DNA of 64,000 nucleotides, taken from positions 26,463 through 90,462 of the forward strand of contig SXHN01000031.1 in assembly GCA_005773635.1 (NCBI GenBank). Reading direction: 5' to 3'. Every line of letters begins with the position of its first letter. Positions within the stretch are counted from its first letter, which is position 1. The stretch comes from Actinomycetota bacterium. GTDB lineage: Bacteria > Actinomycetota > Acidimicrobiia > IMCC26256 > PALSA-610. The position numbers were made by a program, and so were the translations under genes. Below are positions 13,609-24,296 of the stretch, one piece after another. Below the pieces are notes generated by a model. It did not search any database, was not told the origin of the DNA, and was given only the letters and a program-made list of their open reading frames with translations.

Positions 13609-13632
13609 CGATTCAATCGTCGGATTGAATCG
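13609..13632. terminator. hairpin CGATTCAATC-GTCG-GATTGAATCG between convergent genes (terminator-like)
   Basis: Perfect 10-bp stem, 4-nt loop at the 3' end of the protease gene, 12 nt beyond tetR stop; no clear T-tract. Confidence 0.4.
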
Positions 13633-15106
13633 TCGCAGTCCCGGTGCTTCGCACGGTCACGACCCCAGCTCCGCTGGCTCCACTCAACTGCACAGTAAAG
13701 ACCTCATCACCCTCAGGAATCCACTCCCGCCGGATACTGATCGTTACCACTTTGCTCGTTTGTGTGGCAGTAAACGTCAGCGCGCCCGATTTCGACGTGA
13801 AATCATTCGCGCCGGCAGAACCGATGTTCGTGGCGTAGTTCACGGTCACCGTTGCGCCGGGCGCATGGTCGAGCGATACCAAGAACTGCGCCTTGACCAC
13901 AGCACCGTTATCGCCTTCGGGAACCGCAACGTCGCCAATACCGAGCTGCAACGCAGCCGAACCGTCGTCGTCGATAATCGTTGCCGTCCCAACTCCGTCC
14001 GCAACGACTGCTGTCGCTGACGGTGCACCAAGGTTGACGGTAAAGCTCTCCGTAGCTTCTAGGGCTGCGTCGCCCTTGACCGATATTGAAATCGTCTTAC
14101 TGATTGCGTTCGGTAGGAACGTGAGGACACCCGACTTTGCAGTGAAATCTGTACCCGACGTTGCGCTCCCTGCGCTCGTCGAATACGGAACAGTTACGGT
14201 CGACGCAGATTTGGCGTTGAGCACGACCGCGAACTTCATTGCTCGCGTGCCCGAATCTCCTTCGAGTACGGTCGCGTTTCCAATTGACAGTTCTGGTAGC
14301 TCTGCGTTAATCACTTGATAGACCCAGTCGGCGTAGGACGACATCCGAGCCCAGATACCAGGGAACGCGGCAAGTGCGCAGCTGTTACCCCAGCTGGTGT
14401 CGCCAACCAACACCGGCGTTGGCGTGTAGGCCACGATTGGTCCACCCGAATCCCCATCACACGCGTCTTTGCCTCCAGCCGCGACTCCTGCGCACAGCAT
14501 GTGGTCGGAGACATACGAGCTCCCGTAGGATCCGCACGCTCCTGTCGGACCGGAACGATCCACCAACTGCACGCCATGCAGATCATCGGGATACTGCGAC
14601 CCCGAGGCCGACATGTTGCCCCAACCGTACGTTGAAAGGCTTTGGTTCAAGACAGGGAAGCTTGGGTCCGTATTCCATGGAATCGTGGTAGCACCCGTCG
14701 CTGGCACCGTGAGGTGCAACAACGCAATATCGCTTGTGGTTGGCCCCGCCAAGTACTGCGGGTTCATGACAACTTGATCGATGGCTTTGCGATCGCCAGC
14801 GGTGTAGGTCGAGAGTTTCGTCTTACCCCACGCAACGTTGATGCTTGCGGCCGTACGCCCAGACACGCAGTGTGCTGCAGTGAGAACCCACTCGACGTGC
14901 ACCAATGAGCCGCCACAAAATTGGGCCGCGTACGGGTCGCTAGTCGCCGAGTTCATCAGCGCAACCGTCCACGGAACGGTGGATGCGTCGGTGATCCCAC
15001 CGCCAATGATCCGAGGCGCCATAAAGGCGGTCGCTTCTCGAGATCCGACCCCGGTCAACATCGCGGCCGTGACCGCGCTTGCTATGACTAACCGCCCAAA
15101 TTTCAT
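13613..15106 (-). CDS. secreted trypsin-like serine protease with two Calx-beta repeats
   Basis: Signal peptide MKFGRLVIASAVTAAMLTGVG; IIGGGITDASTVPWTVAL, LTAAHC, DSGGPIV; Calx-beta-like repeats ending GTATIIDDDG and GTATIQSDD. Confidence 0.88.
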   Translation of the reverse strand: MKFGRLVIASAVTAAMLTGVGSREATAFMAPRIIGGGITDASTVPWTVALMNSATSDPYAAQFCGGSLVHVEWVLTAAHCVSGRTAASINVAWGKTKLSTYTAGDRKAIDQVVMNPQYLAGPTTSDIALLHLTVPATGATTIPWNTDPSFPVLNQSLSTYGWGNMSASGSQYPDDLHGVQLVDRSGPTGACGSYGSSYVSDHMLCAGVAAGGKDACDGDSGGPIVAYTPTPVLVGDTSWGNSCALAAFPGIWARMSSYADWVYQVINAELPELSIGNATVLEGDSGTRAMKFAVVLNAKSASTVTVPYSTSAGSATSGTDFTAKSGVLTFLPNAISKTISISVKGDAALEATESFTVNLGAPSATAVVADGVGTATIIDDDGSAALQLGIGDVAVPEGDNGAVVKAQFLVSLDHAPGATVTVNYATNIGSAGANDFTSKSGALTFTATQTSKVVTISIRREWIPEGDEVFTVQLSGASGAGVVTVRSTGTATIQSDD

Positions 15107-15215
15107 TGCTTCGCCGTTTCGTTCAGTGAATTTTCTCGGAACGTAGGCACGGTAACAGAGCAGCATTCGATATTCCAGAGGTTCCGACCCATATTCCCGG
15201 CTGTGGGGCGCACAC

Positions 15216-15965
15216 CTAGCTGGCGGTGACACCGCCGTCGCTCGACACGATGGCACCAGTCATGTTGCGAGCGTCGTCGGAAGCGAGGTACGCGAACAGT
15301 CCGGCAATCTCTTGCGGGGTCGCTGCACCTCGGAACCCTACGTAGGGCTTCACGAGCTCGAAGTCGACGTCGTCGGGGAAACTGAGGCCTTTGACCAGAT
15401 TGGTGCTCACGCCAGCCGGAGCAATCGCGTTCACGCGCAGCGGGCTCTTGATGTACTCCATGGCAAGACTGCGAGTGAGTTGCACAACCGCACCTTTGCT
15501 CATTGAATACGCAACGTTGTAGGCCATTCCCATGAGACCCGCATTCGAAGCGATATTCACGATGTTGCCGTTACGCGCGAGCAAATGCGGGATCGCCGCT
15601 TGCGCCATCCACACCGGACCATTGACGTTCACGGCCATTAGCCGCTCATACTGTTGGGGTGTCATCTCGGTGAAATGCGCCATGAATACGATTCCAGCAA
15701 CGTTGCCAAGAACGTCAAGCGCACCAAGGCGATCAACGCATTCGGCCACCGCAGCGAAACACGCGTCACGATCAGTCACATCAGTGACGCCACCGGTAAT
15801 CGCACCTTCGCCAAGCTCGATCGTTTCGTTCATCGCCGCTTCATTGGCATCGAGCCCGTATACCTGGGCTCCTTCTTGCGCGAGGCGTAGCGAAGTCGCA
15901 CGACCAATCCCTGATCCGGCACCGGTGATCAGCGCAACTTTGCCTTCAAATCGTCGTTGGTTCAT
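15216..15965 (-). CDS. SDR family oxidoreductase
   Basis: KVALITGAGSGIGRATSLRLA...NVAGI...IVNIASNAG...YSMSKGAVVQLTRSLAMEY. Confidence 0.93.
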   Translation of the reverse strand: MNQRRFEGKVALITGAGSGIGRATSLRLAQEGAQVYGLDANEAAMNETIELGEGAITGGVTDVTDRDACFAAVAECVDRLGALDVLGNVAGIVFMAHFTEMTPQQYERLMAVNVNGPVWMAQAAIPHLLARNGNIVNIASNAGLMGMAYNVAYSMSKGAVVQLTRSLAMEYIKSPLRVNAIAPAGVSTNLVKGLSFPDDVDFELVKPYVGFRGAATPQEIAGLFAYLASDDARNMTGAIVSSDGGVTAS

Positions 15966-19581: not shown

Positions 19582-19776
19582 CTACTCGCCGCCCTTTTGC
19601 ACGTAGCTGCGCACAAACTCTTCTGCATTGGTTTCAAGCACCGAGTCAATCTCGTCGAGCAAATCGTCGAGTTCCTCTTTGATCTTTTCGCCCTGCTTTG
19701 CTGGCGCCGAAACTTCTTCGACGGTCTCTTCACGCTCTCTCGGAGCAGGTTTCTGCTTGCGTTCACGTTCGGGCAT
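19582..19776 (-). CDS. pup: prokaryotic ubiquitin-like protein Pup (C-terminal GGE)
   Basis: 64 aa [64 protein letters not shown], directly downstream of dop. Confidence 0.96.
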
Positions 19777-19827: not shown

Positions 19828-21315
19828 TTAGGATGACAGTTGTTCTACCAGTTGTCGGGGGGTCGAACAGTCACGAAATAGTGCCTCGGTGTGAATTTTT
19901 GTGCCCCGTAATGGCTCCATCATCGGAATCCGTCGCAACGGGTCGGAACCAGTGTCGAGGATCACGCTGTCCCAGTTCGCCGCAACCACGGAATCGGGCC
20001 ACTTCTCCAACAGTTTTCCCCGGAAATATGCCCTGGTGGTCGGGGGTGGCTCCACCATGGCCACCACGACCTCGTCCTCGTCGAGAAGCCGCTCAATCTT
20101 GCCCGCACGGACCAACTTCTCGTAGATCGACTTGTCGGGCCGCACGTCGTGATATTGGATGTCGAGGAGTGCAAGCTTGGCATCCGACCACTCCAGACCA
20201 TCGCGCTCGACGTAGTTGCGTAGCAACTGATATTTCGTCACCCAGTCGAGCACACCGTCAAGTTGCCTCGGGTCTGATTCCAATGCTGTCAGCACTCGTT
20301 CCCATTGGGTCAGCACGAGTTCGCCAACCGCCTCACCGCCAGACGCATCGTGGCCACGCTCGTCGGCATACTTTCGTGCCAAGCGAAAGTATTCCCATTG
20401 CAGTTCGAGCGCGGTCGCCGAGGTGCCGTCGGCCAGCCCGAGCACCGTCCGTAAGGTCGGGTCGTGCGACACCGATCGCATCGCAGGCACTGGTCCAGTC
20501 AAGACGAATTCACGATCGAAGAAATCGTCTTCGATCATGTTGAGAACAATCGCGGTCGTGCCAACTTTCAAGAAGGTGCTTACCTCACACAAGTTTGCAT
20601 CGCCGACGATCACATGGAGCCGACGATATTTCTGAGGGTCGGCATGAGGTTCGTCGCGAGTGTTAATGATCGGTCGCTTCAATGTGGTTTCGAGCCCAAC
20701 TTCTTCTTCGAAGAAATCGGCGCGTTGCGAAATCTGGAAATCACAACGTTGGGCGCCATTCTCTGAACCGACTTTGCCCGCACCGCAAAAGATTTGACGG
20801 GTCACAAAAAACGGAGTCATATGCCGGACCAAGGAGCCAAACGGCGTGGCCCGGTCCACGAGGTAGTTCTCATGGCATCCGTAACTATTGCCTTTGCCAT
20901 CACTGTTATTTTTGTAGGTGACAACTTCTTGGCCCTGTGGAATCAAATTGCGCGCGGCCGCCATTGAACGGGCCAAGATGCGCTCACCCGCTTTGTCGTA
21001 CATCGTGCATTGCAAGGCATCAGAACACTCCGGGGCTGAATACTCAGGATGGGCATGATCCACGTAATACCGAGCACCGTTTGTGAGTACTGCGTTCACG
21101 AGGTGGGTTTCAATATCCGGCGGCTGCGCGCCTTCGCGAGCGAATCCTCGGGCGTCATGACCAGGATGCTCGTCGTCGAAATCCCATCCCACTTTGCGGC
21201 GGTCGACAAATGCATTGATCAGCACGCTCGACGCGAGCACAGGATTGGGGTCGGGGGCACCACGCAGCACCACCCCGTACTCGGTTTCAACACCAATAAT
21301 CTTGGGAAGAGCCAC
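19828..21315 (-). CDS. dop: Pup deamidase/depupylase Dop
   Basis: IIGVETEYGVV...LTNGARYYVDHAHPEYSAPEC...YKNNSDGKGNSYGCHENYL...EVGLETTLKRPIINTRDEPHADPQKYRRLHVIVGDAN. Confidence 0.95.
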   Translation of the reverse strand: MALPKIIGVETEYGVVLRGAPDPNPVLASSVLINAFVDRRKVGWDFDDEHPGHDARGFAREGAQPPDIETHLVNAVLTNGARYYVDHAHPEYSAPECSDALQCTMYDKAGERILARSMAAARNLIPQGQEVVTYKNNSDGKGNSYGCHENYLVDRATPFGSLVRHMTPFFVTRQIFCGAGKVGSENGAQRCDFQISQRADFFEEEVGLETTLKRPIINTRDEPHADPQKYRRLHVIVGDANLCEVSTFLKVGTTAIVLNMIEDDFFDREFVLTGPVPAMRSVSHDPTLRTVLGLADGTSATALELQWEYFRLARKYADERGHDASGGEAVGELVLTQWERVLTALESDPRQLDGVLDWVTKYQLLRNYVERDGLEWSDAKLALLDIQYHDVRPDKSIYEKLVRAGKIERLLDEDEVVVAMVEPPPTTRAYFRGKLLEKWPDSVVAANWDSVILDTGSDPLRRIPMMEPLRGTKIHTEALFRDCSTPRQLVEQLSS

Positions 21316-21374: not shown

Positions 21375-22517
21375 CTAGCGCCGTAAACGACCAAAGCTGG
21401 ACCTCACGCTGCGACGCGCTGCTTGCAGAGACCGTTTCACAGCATTCACGACGGGCCGCACAAAACCGCGCGCGCTGCGAACCCCCGAGTTGCACGCGCG
21501 GGCACACGCCGTAGCTGTCGGTTTGACATGGCGCACCCACACGGCGCGAATGAACCGCGCGACACGAACGAGCACGAACGCAGTCAACCGGAAAGGAAAC
21601 GAGACAATTTTCCAAACCCAGCGCGCTATCCAGCGAGCGGTTGGCGCAATCGCCCGCCACCCGGCAGCCACGGCTGAACCAATTGCGCCAACAACTTTGG
21701 CAATGCGCCGGACGATGGCCATCAAAACGCGAACAGGCACGCGCATCAACCGTTGGATACCGCGAGCTAGACCGAGCACAGCACGCGCAACCCAGCTACC
21801 GAGCCCCTTGAGGATTGCCCACGTTGCCCGACCGATCGCACTCAGCGCGCGCCATAGCGCATTCAGCGCGCTACTAAGGAGACGAATGGGCACGCTGATG
21901 AGCCCAAGCGCGAGCATCCAGCACCAGTGCAGGAGTCGGCCTGCCGATCGCAACAGCGCAATCAACGTTCGATAGCAAATCCGCAGCGCGTTGGCACAAA
22001 GTCGCAGTGGTAACAACATCAGGTTCGCGAGTGTGTGCAACAGTCGCGCCAGCATCCGAAATGGCCAGCTCGTTAGGCGCAGCAACCACCGGACCGGAGC
22101 GGTCAACCAGCACACGATTGCGCCAATCGTGCGCCAAAAAAACAGCGCCAACCATATGAACGGTGCGACAACGAGATACAGCAACTTCACAAGGAGCCCG
22201 CCCAACCGGCGCAACGCCAACCATAACCACCGAAACGGAAGGACGACAATTGAGCAAAGCCAGGACAACACTCGCGCGCACCATCTCACAAGCACAATGG
22301 CGCATCGGCCGATCCACCGAAACGGAATCGTGATCCAAGAGATCAGCGCGCTAGCGACACCGCCGATGAAACTCGCCCCGGCAAGGACACCCCGACATAT
22401 GGCTTTGACCGCCAACCAGATCAGATAGAACGGCAACAGCAGCACCGTCAGCCCGCGATGCAGAGCCCGACTCAGCGCTGAACGGGGCACCTCATCGGTT
22501 TGCGGATAGTCCCCCAT
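21375..22517 (-). CDS. uncharacterized Arg/Trp-rich, acid-free hydrophobic (predicted membrane or long amphipathic-helix) protein
   Basis: ATG at 22517 (ORF track uses TTG 22520). 50 Arg, 7 Lys and 22 Trp in 381 aa, no D/E after residue 10, repeated P-[FVLI]-R motifs; lies between arc and dop on the same strand with short gaps. Confidence 0.7.
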   Translation of the reverse strand: MGDYPQTDEVPRSALSRALHRGLTVLLLPFYLIWLAVKAICRGVLAGASFIGGVASALISWITIPFRWIGRCAIVLVRWCARVLSWLCSIVVLPFRWLWLALRRLGGLLVKLLYLVVAPFIWLALFFWRTIGAIVCWLTAPVRWLLRLTSWPFRMLARLLHTLANLMLLPLRLCANALRICYRTLIALLRSAGRLLHWCWMLALGLISVPIRLLSSALNALWRALSAIGRATWAILKGLGSWVARAVLGLARGIQRLMRVPVRVLMAIVRRIAKVVGAIGSAVAAGWRAIAPTARWIARWVWKIVSFPFRLTAFVLVRVARFIRAVWVRHVKPTATACARACNSGVRSARGFVRPVVNAVKRSLQAARRSVRSSFGRLRR

Positions 22518-22544: not shown

Positions 22545-24296
22545 CTAGAGGTACTGACCGGTTGTGACTTTTTCAATTTGTCGACCGCCGCGCTGCTCAT
22601 CGTCTTTGGCAATGATCGTGCGCACGTAGACGATGCGTTCGCCTTTCTTGCCAGAGATTTTCGCCCAGTCGTCGGGGTTGGTCGTGTTGGGCAGATCTTC
22701 GTGCTCGCGAAATTCCTGTTTGATCGAATCCAAAAGATCTTGCGTGGAGATGCCGGCCGAACCGCCCGCGATCGATCGTTTGATCGACAATTTCTTGGCT
22801 CTCCGAACAATGTTTTCGATCATGGCACCCGAAGAAAAATCTTTGAAGAACAAGATCTCTTTATCGCCATTTTGGTAGGTGACTTCCAAGAACTTGTTGT
22901 CATCGCCGGTCTCGTACATGGCTTCGACTGCATCGCCAATCATCGCGACGACAGCTTTGTCCGCATTTCCACGCGCTTTTTTTAGCTCGTCATCTGCGAT
23001 CGGAAGGTGCGGCTGCAAGTACTGACGGAAGATCTGTTTCGCGGAGTCTGCATCAGGGCGTTCGATCTTGATTTTTACGTCGAGGCGGCCCGGTCGCAGA
23101 ATTGCGGGGTCAATGAGGTCTTCGCGGTTGGACGCACCAATGACAATGACGTTTCGCAGCGCTTCGACCCCGTCAATTTCTGCCAAAAGCTGGGGCACGA
23201 TTGTGGACTCGATGTCTGACGAGATGCCTGTTCCACGGGTGCGAAACAGCGAATCCATCTCGTCGAAGAACACAATGACCGGATGACCCTCCTCGCTCTT
23301 TTCGCGCGCACGTTCGAAAATGAGTCGAATTTGGCGCTCCGTTTCACCCACGTACTTGTTGAGCAGTTCAGGGCCTTTGACGTTGATGAAATAGCTTCGG
23401 GCCTTCGTGTTACCCGTCTTTTCGGCGACCCGCTTGGCAAGCGAATTCGCAACTGCTTTCGCGATCAACGTCTTGCCGCAACCTGGCGGCCCGTATAGCA
23501 AGATGCCTTTGGGCGGTTGTAGTTCATGGTCGTGAAACAATTCTCCGTACAAGTACGGAAGTTCGATTGCGTCCTTGATCATTTCAATTTGATCGTCGAG
23601 GCCACCAACATCGTCGTAGCTGACATCGGGCACTTCTTCAAGCACCAGTTCTTCAACTTCGGGCCGCGGTACTTTTTCCACTAACAACCCAGAACGGGCA
23701 TCCATCAAGAGATGATCTCCTGGACGGATATATACGCCCTTCAAGGAGTCGGCAAGTTCGGCGACGCGTTCTTCGTCGGCGCGGCCGGTAACCAGCGCAC
23801 GCTCACCATCTTCAAGCGTCTCTTTATACGTGACAACTTCACCGTGGCGCTCCCCACTGCGCACCAGCACAACGCTTAAGGACTCGTTGAGCACAACCTC
23901 GTCGCCGCGTTGCAAAGCATCAGTATCGATTTCTGGGTGCAGGGATACCCGCATTTTGCGACCTGCCGAAAACACATCAACGGTACCGTCGTCGTTGACG
24001 CCGAGGTATGTGCCGTAGGCATTGGGCGGCATCGTGAGTTTGTCGACCTCTTCACGCAAGGCCGCAATGTGGTCGCGGGCCTCTCGTAGCGTGGCTGACA
24101 GCTTTTCGTTTTGTGACATGGCCTGCTGAAGTTGGCCCTTAGTTTCGAGCAGTCGCTCTTCGAGGGTGCGCACCCGCTTTGGGGCGTCTTGGAGTCGACG
24201 GCGCAGCACCAACACTTCTTCTTCCAGGGCGGCGATCTCAGCGAGATCCTCCGCGGTGATTCCACCATCGGTATTGGTGCTGTCTTGCTGCGACAT
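22545..24296 (-). CDS. arc: proteasome-associated AAA ATPase ARC/Mpa
   Basis: Coiled-coil N-terminus, OB region, GPPGCGKT Walker [11 protein letters not shown]-terminal GQYL proteasome-docking motif. Confidence 0.96.

Follow-up and report, generated by a model that had tools for sequence, protein, structure and literature searches.

An arginine-striped, almost acid-free amphipathic-helix protein encoded between arc and dop in an Acidimicrobiia genome, and its probable relatives in a rare gene pair

Gene content of the locus

The window, i.e., the whole 64,000-nucleotide stretch of Acidimicrobiia DNA analysed here, carries an open reading frame (ORF) for an arginine-striped protein between arc and dop (Table 1). 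As described in the initial annotation, the ORF lies on the same strand as both neighbours, 27 nt away from arc and 59 nt from dop; the three genes run in one direction and may be co-transcribed. The product has 381 residues if read from TTG 22520 and 380 if read from ATG 22517, and the ATG is the more likely start because the counterpart in a same-genus relative (genome G004) begins ATGGGGAGCTATCCGCAAACTGA. Counting the residues confirmed an extreme composition of 50 Arg, 7 Lys and 22 Trp, with every acid (2 Asp and 1 Glu) within residues 1–10 and none beyond, giving a net charge of about +54. The gene after pup encodes an amidohydrolase and the two 20S subunits are encoded on contig C28 of the same genome; the proteasome genes are therefore split in this genome. 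The closest matches to arc come nearly all from Acidimicrobiia and related actinobacterial metagenome assemblies. Elsewhere in the window, positions 13613–15256 of the reverse strand encode a probable secreted protease containing Trypsin and Calx-beta domains.

Table 1. Features of the arc–dop–pup locus in window coordinates
Feature	Position	Strand	Description
Arg-striped amphipathic-helix protein	21375..22517	(-)	380 residues from the ATG; acid-free helix after a short acidic tail
N-terminal tail MGDYPQTDEV	22488..22517	(-)	Start conserved as MGSYPQTDV in same-genus G004
Segment LHRGLTVLLLPFYLIWLAVK	22404..22463	(-)	Candidate counterpart of the A-B family motif LAKIIAVPLAPFVALWEGGKAL
arc, proteasomal AAA ATPase	22545..24296	(-)	Upstream neighbour of the Arg-striped ORF
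dop, Pup_ligase family	19828..21315	(-)	Downstream neighbour of the Arg-striped ORF
pup	19582..19776	(-)	64 aa, MPERERKQK...SYVQKGGE, from translation; directly after dop

The Arg-striped ORF is a real coding gene

The sense frame runs for 380 codons without a stop, whereas the other five frames contain 4–21 stops, and the spectral power of Arg plus Lys (R+K) reaches 34.9 in the sense frame against 6.1–12.8 in the others. Because the helical phase appears in the sense frame only, the ORF is coding. Codon position 2 is poor in A (7%, compared to 19% at position 1). Codon preference (0.102 in the sense frame and at most 0.086 in the others) separated the frames poorly and decides little; coding is argued instead from helical phase and codon position 2. 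Among 1459 ORFs of at least 250 aa, a set that includes related loci in several copies, an R+K power above 17 was found only for the window ORF, its look-alikes or their antisense frames.

That the ORF is spurious, or the gene decaying, is scarcely credible on these data. The protein was unmatched in the 13 other genomes of the same taxonomic family, its remnant in G004 is broken, and its codon preference is barely better than that of the other frames, all of which would suit this explanation; the helical phase confined to one frame, the depletion of A at position 2 and the long stop-free run speak against it. The initial annotation had named missing orthologs and an absent codon-position bias as signs of a spurious ORF. 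In other genera, the arc–dop junction holds no ortholog, and no intact ortholog was found in the genomes searched, but the coding signal is very strong and probable distant relatives exist elsewhere.

A single helical phase along the whole protein

Spectral analysis of the whole protein gave an R+K power peak of 34.6 at 3.63 residues; in shuffled sequences the maxima averaged 5.2, and 99% of them stayed below 8.4. The period recurs for hydrophobic residues (power about 21) and for Pro (power 8.1, p about 0.012). The recurrence of Arg at helical spacings noted previously was reproduced, with Arg–Arg pairs enriched at +4, 7, 11, 18, 22, 25, 29, 33, 36, 40, 47, 51 and 58 and depleted at the spacings in between. 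Eight P-phi-R motifs are indeed present at 66, 95, 142, 153, 171, 211, 262 and 309, and their prolines, 11 to 51 residues apart, hold one helical phase. The accompanying claim of a Trp stripe had to be abandoned, as Trp is aperiodic over the whole protein (its best power, 3.0, is what chance gives). When the protein was divided into overlapping 60-residue pieces, the stripe kept its phase to within a range of 60 degrees. This phase coherence of R+K over the full length agrees with the earlier proposal of one very long helix, or a series of helices in phase, with a continuous Arg face.

Arg and Lys lie mainly within ±60 degrees of the centre of the basic face, large hydrophobic residues lie on the opposite side (-171 degrees), and prolines fall mostly at +120 to +150 degrees (+139 degrees overall), on the hydrophobic side. 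The period of a heptad coiled coil is 3.5, that of a 3-11 helix is 3.67, and a straight stripe on an ordinary alpha-helix requires about 3.63. The observed 3.630 matches a straight stripe on an ordinary alpha-helix and not a coiled coil or the 3-11 helix of perilipin. The mean hydrophobic moment over 18 residues is 0.40, compared to 0.216 ± 0.018 for shuffles, and the net charge per 18 residues averages +2.6 and peaks towards the C-terminus. AlphaFold2, run without an alignment, predicted helices at residues 12–61, 67–148, 154–257 and 262–379 with low to moderate confidence, and the breaks between them fall near P66, P153 and P262. As the mean pLDDT is only 65, these helices are support for the model and not proof.

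Hydrophobicity is greatest in the N-terminal half (mean 1.04 around residues 61–120), where charge-free stretches of 16–24 residues occur at 22–37, 43–66 and 112–128. Such features would be expected of an integral multi-pass protein whose charge-free N-terminal stretches span the bilayer while the remainder stays at the cytoplasmic face of the membrane, with Arg providing positive-inside anchoring. We regard this topology as unlikely: basic residues mostly follow one another too closely for the intervening segment to cross a bilayer, and separate membrane crossings would not require a single Arg phase through 370 residues. Because of the same charge-free stretches, the arrangement may nevertheless be partly integral, with true transmembrane helices in the N-terminal half.

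The arc–dop junction in relatives

The Arg-striped gene is not a conserved proteasome-operon gene, and its linkage with arc, dop and pup is not conserved. Among the 103 loci in which arc and dop could both be located, 84 have at most 92 nt between them, a count in which the window locus appears twice and a few genomes are present in two collections. A screen of all loci found no long acid-free Arg-rich ORF at any other arc–dop junction. The large gaps that were inspected are occupied by different ORFs, of which several run in the opposite direction, and the junction looks like a site of repeated insertion. Differing long ORFs, mostly on the opposite strand, occur at the junction in six Acidimicrobiia loci. 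In G004, the arc–dop gap of 296 nt holds a start reading MGSYPQTDVILDTDTAADDDGPRSFRR with a stop after 27 residues, and this start resembles that of the window gene more closely than does the spacer just upstream. Because the two starts match, the gene was probably already present when the two species diverged, with later decay in G004.

The initial annotation had proposed that the protein serves pupylated substrates or the ARC ATPase as a scaffold or adaptor, which would bring them to a membrane or to polyanions. The shared strand, the short gaps to both neighbours and the position of pup directly after dop are consistent with this role, yet we consider it very improbable. The gene is missing at nearly all of the other arc–dop junctions, unrelated ORFs occupy some of them, and even the same-genus G004 keeps only a broken start. 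The six best look-alikes are located elsewhere in their genomes, beside a different conserved partner (gene A, described below) and without adjoining proteasome genes, and the 20S subunits of the window genome are not on this contig. Nothing except position connects the Arg-striped protein with the proteasome, and its location between arc and dop is probably incidental.

A conserved gene pair encodes proteins with the same helix geometry

A search of 396 genomes of the class yielded the first look-alikes, one in G314 (E = 6.8e-7) and one in G356 among the weak matches; the other weak single-segment matches were not counted as relatives. The proteins of G314 and G356 have a common N-terminal motif, and each is encoded directly after a homologous gene, here called A (39% identity). 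Searches of the families of these two genomes added G759, G795, G827 and G830, and gene A lies directly upstream of the look-alike gene, B, in all six. The B proteins each consist of an acidic tail, a AVPLAPFVALWEGGKAL-like motif (of the form AVPLAPfvxxWegxkAL in 6/6) and an Arg-striped helix of 370–500 residues. Their geometry is that of the window protein, with stripe periods of 3.616–3.638, Pro angles of +93 to +134 degrees and large-hydrophobic angles of -150 to -174 degrees. The product of gene A is a small protein that combines an acidic stretch with a hydrophobic, potentially hairpin-forming one, and it has no Pfam family. The surroundings of the six A-B loci are otherwise variable, and no proteasome genes were seen beside them.

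The occurrence of these genes is sporadic. Gene A was found in few of the 396 class genomes, with strong scores in three, and in a 399-genome sample of the phylum B was matched at E ≤ 1e-5 only in the window genome, besides one rejected antisense match; both samples are draws from larger groups, and the counts are not prevalences. Gene A also occurs at a contig end in G204. The rejected match, in G446, lies antisense to a gene for a highly acidic protein containing repeats such as AVEDVGEGAG, and the antisense frame mimics a cationic helix. The A-B pair is rare in the sampled genomes, and the family is apparently undescribed.

Several comparisons bear on whether the window protein belongs to this family. 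Against phase-preserving shuffles, in which every residue is kept in its helical phase, the window protein scored beyond 200/200 for five of the B proteins, and 4/200 shuffles reached its score with G759; the six B proteins stand much further above their own shuffle nulls. A whole-length family profile gave 85.3 bits for the window protein against a shuffle maximum of 82.0, a bare separation. At the N-terminal motif LAKxxAVPLAPFvxxWegxkAL, the segment LHRGLTVLLLPFYLIWLAVKAI of the window protein aligns, with its pairwise scores reached by 0/1000 and 11/1000 phase shuffles and its motif profile score by 9/500. Its stripe period and Pro angle fall within the family ranges (3.62–3.64 and about +90 to +140 degrees). 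The window protein resembles the B proteins in length class, acidic tail, nearly acid-free Arg-striped helix, period and Pro angle, but it differs in having no clear AVPLAP motif, in being far richer in Trp and in its site between arc and dop. Gene A has no match in the window genome, where the gene upstream of the ORF is arc. We consider remote homology with the B proteins probable, the alternative being that the same helix arose by convergent evolution, and the window protein is probably a divergent, solitary relative of the A-B family.

Comparison with known proteins

In line with the earlier failure to recognise a family, searches of Pfam, NCBIfam, PHROGs, PADLOC and PDB sequences assigned none to the Arg-striped ORF. 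Pfam gave no family at E ≤ 1 and no match to the 11-mer models of perilipins or apolipoproteins. No relative was found among the viral contigs, phages and plasmids searched or by a peptide-pattern search of genome contigs, and our searches of the open-access literature yielded no account of such a protein in bacteria. The NCBIfam LPFR motif small protein NF040918 matched weakly (E = 1.3e-4, best stretch at residues 151–161), but the score of 21.7 bits compares with a cut-off of 40, the family is only 35 residues long, and its model had no match in 14 genomes of the organism's taxonomic family. Phage tail tape measure proteins in PHROGs also matched weakly (20.5 bits, E = 1.5e-4) and likewise form long regular helices; however, the matches are partial and low-scoring, and the annotated neighbours of the window gene include no tail genes. 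Long helical proteins tend to give such partial, low-scoring matches.

In exchangeable apolipoproteins of the ApoA-I type, the amphipathic helices are long, their prolines recur at one helical position and their spacing is 11-residue-based; these proteins are secreted and carry acidic residues in the polar face. The window protein shares the long amphipathic helix, the fixed-angle prolines and the 11-residue-based spacing; in contrast, its helix is free of acids and no signal peptide is apparent. Perilipin-4 likewise has a very long, regular amphipathic region, which coats lipid droplets and is built of 33-mer (3 x 11) repeats that form a 3-11 helix of low hydrophobicity, with 3 positive and 2 negative charges per 33-mer, and longer constructs bind better (PMC5889406). 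Unlike perilipin-4, with which it has no sequence match, the window protein has a period of 3.63, is very hydrophobic and has no acids in its helix. Its mean hydrophobicity of 0.73 also exceeds that of the A-B family, two members of which have 0.34 and 0.40.

A putative coat on anionic lipid surfaces

After the short acidic tail, the approximately 370 remaining residues would form an almost unbroken amphipathic helix, kinked at a few prolines and reaching some 55 nm at full extension, with Arg and Lys on one face and Leu, Val, Ile, Phe, Trp and Ala on the remainder. A cationic helix that lacks acids, has a wide hydrophobic face and is rich in aromatics is expected to reside in the headgroup region of anionic membranes. 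Most likely, the helix would lie flat on an anionic lipid surface, either that of the inner membrane or the monolayer of a lipid droplet. Its Arg residues would be placed at the headgroups, and its length would provide many contacts in series, as for perilipin-4 (PMC5889406), allowing a coat or scaffold role there. A peripheral membrane or lipid-droplet coat protein, apolipoprotein- or perilipin-4-like but purely cationic, is the reading we favour, at somewhat better than an even chance. The analysis shows the coding signal, the phase-coherent stripe, the geometry common to the window protein and the six B proteins, and the sporadic occurrence; membrane binding, helix continuity and coat function are inferred.

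The Arg face might instead bind a polyanion (DNA, RNA or polyphosphate), making this a nucleoid or granule protein. The net charge, the near-absence of acids and the continuous basic stripe would fit, but the faces opposite the stripe are strongly hydrophobic, with much Leu and Trp, in contrast to histone-H1-like proteins, and the hydrophobic moment together with the charge suits lipid surfaces. We judge this improbable. More speculative, and given a smaller chance even than the ARC/Pup scaffold, is a two-gene membrane coating in which A, a small membrane protein, would act as anchor or regulator of a 55–75 nm, almost purely cationic helix B; in the window genus, B would have lost A, joined the pup operon and come to lay ARC or pupylated substrates along the membrane.

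The Arg-striped gene carries a caution for annotation, as its operon position gave no evidence of its function. The giant lipid-coating amphipathic helices that we found described so far are all from animals. A bacterial protein with a 370-residue, one-phase, acid-free Arg stripe, together with six look-alikes in a conserved gene pair, makes a small testable family, and the A-B family and the window protein offer a means to ask how such helices may bind and shape bacterial membranes.
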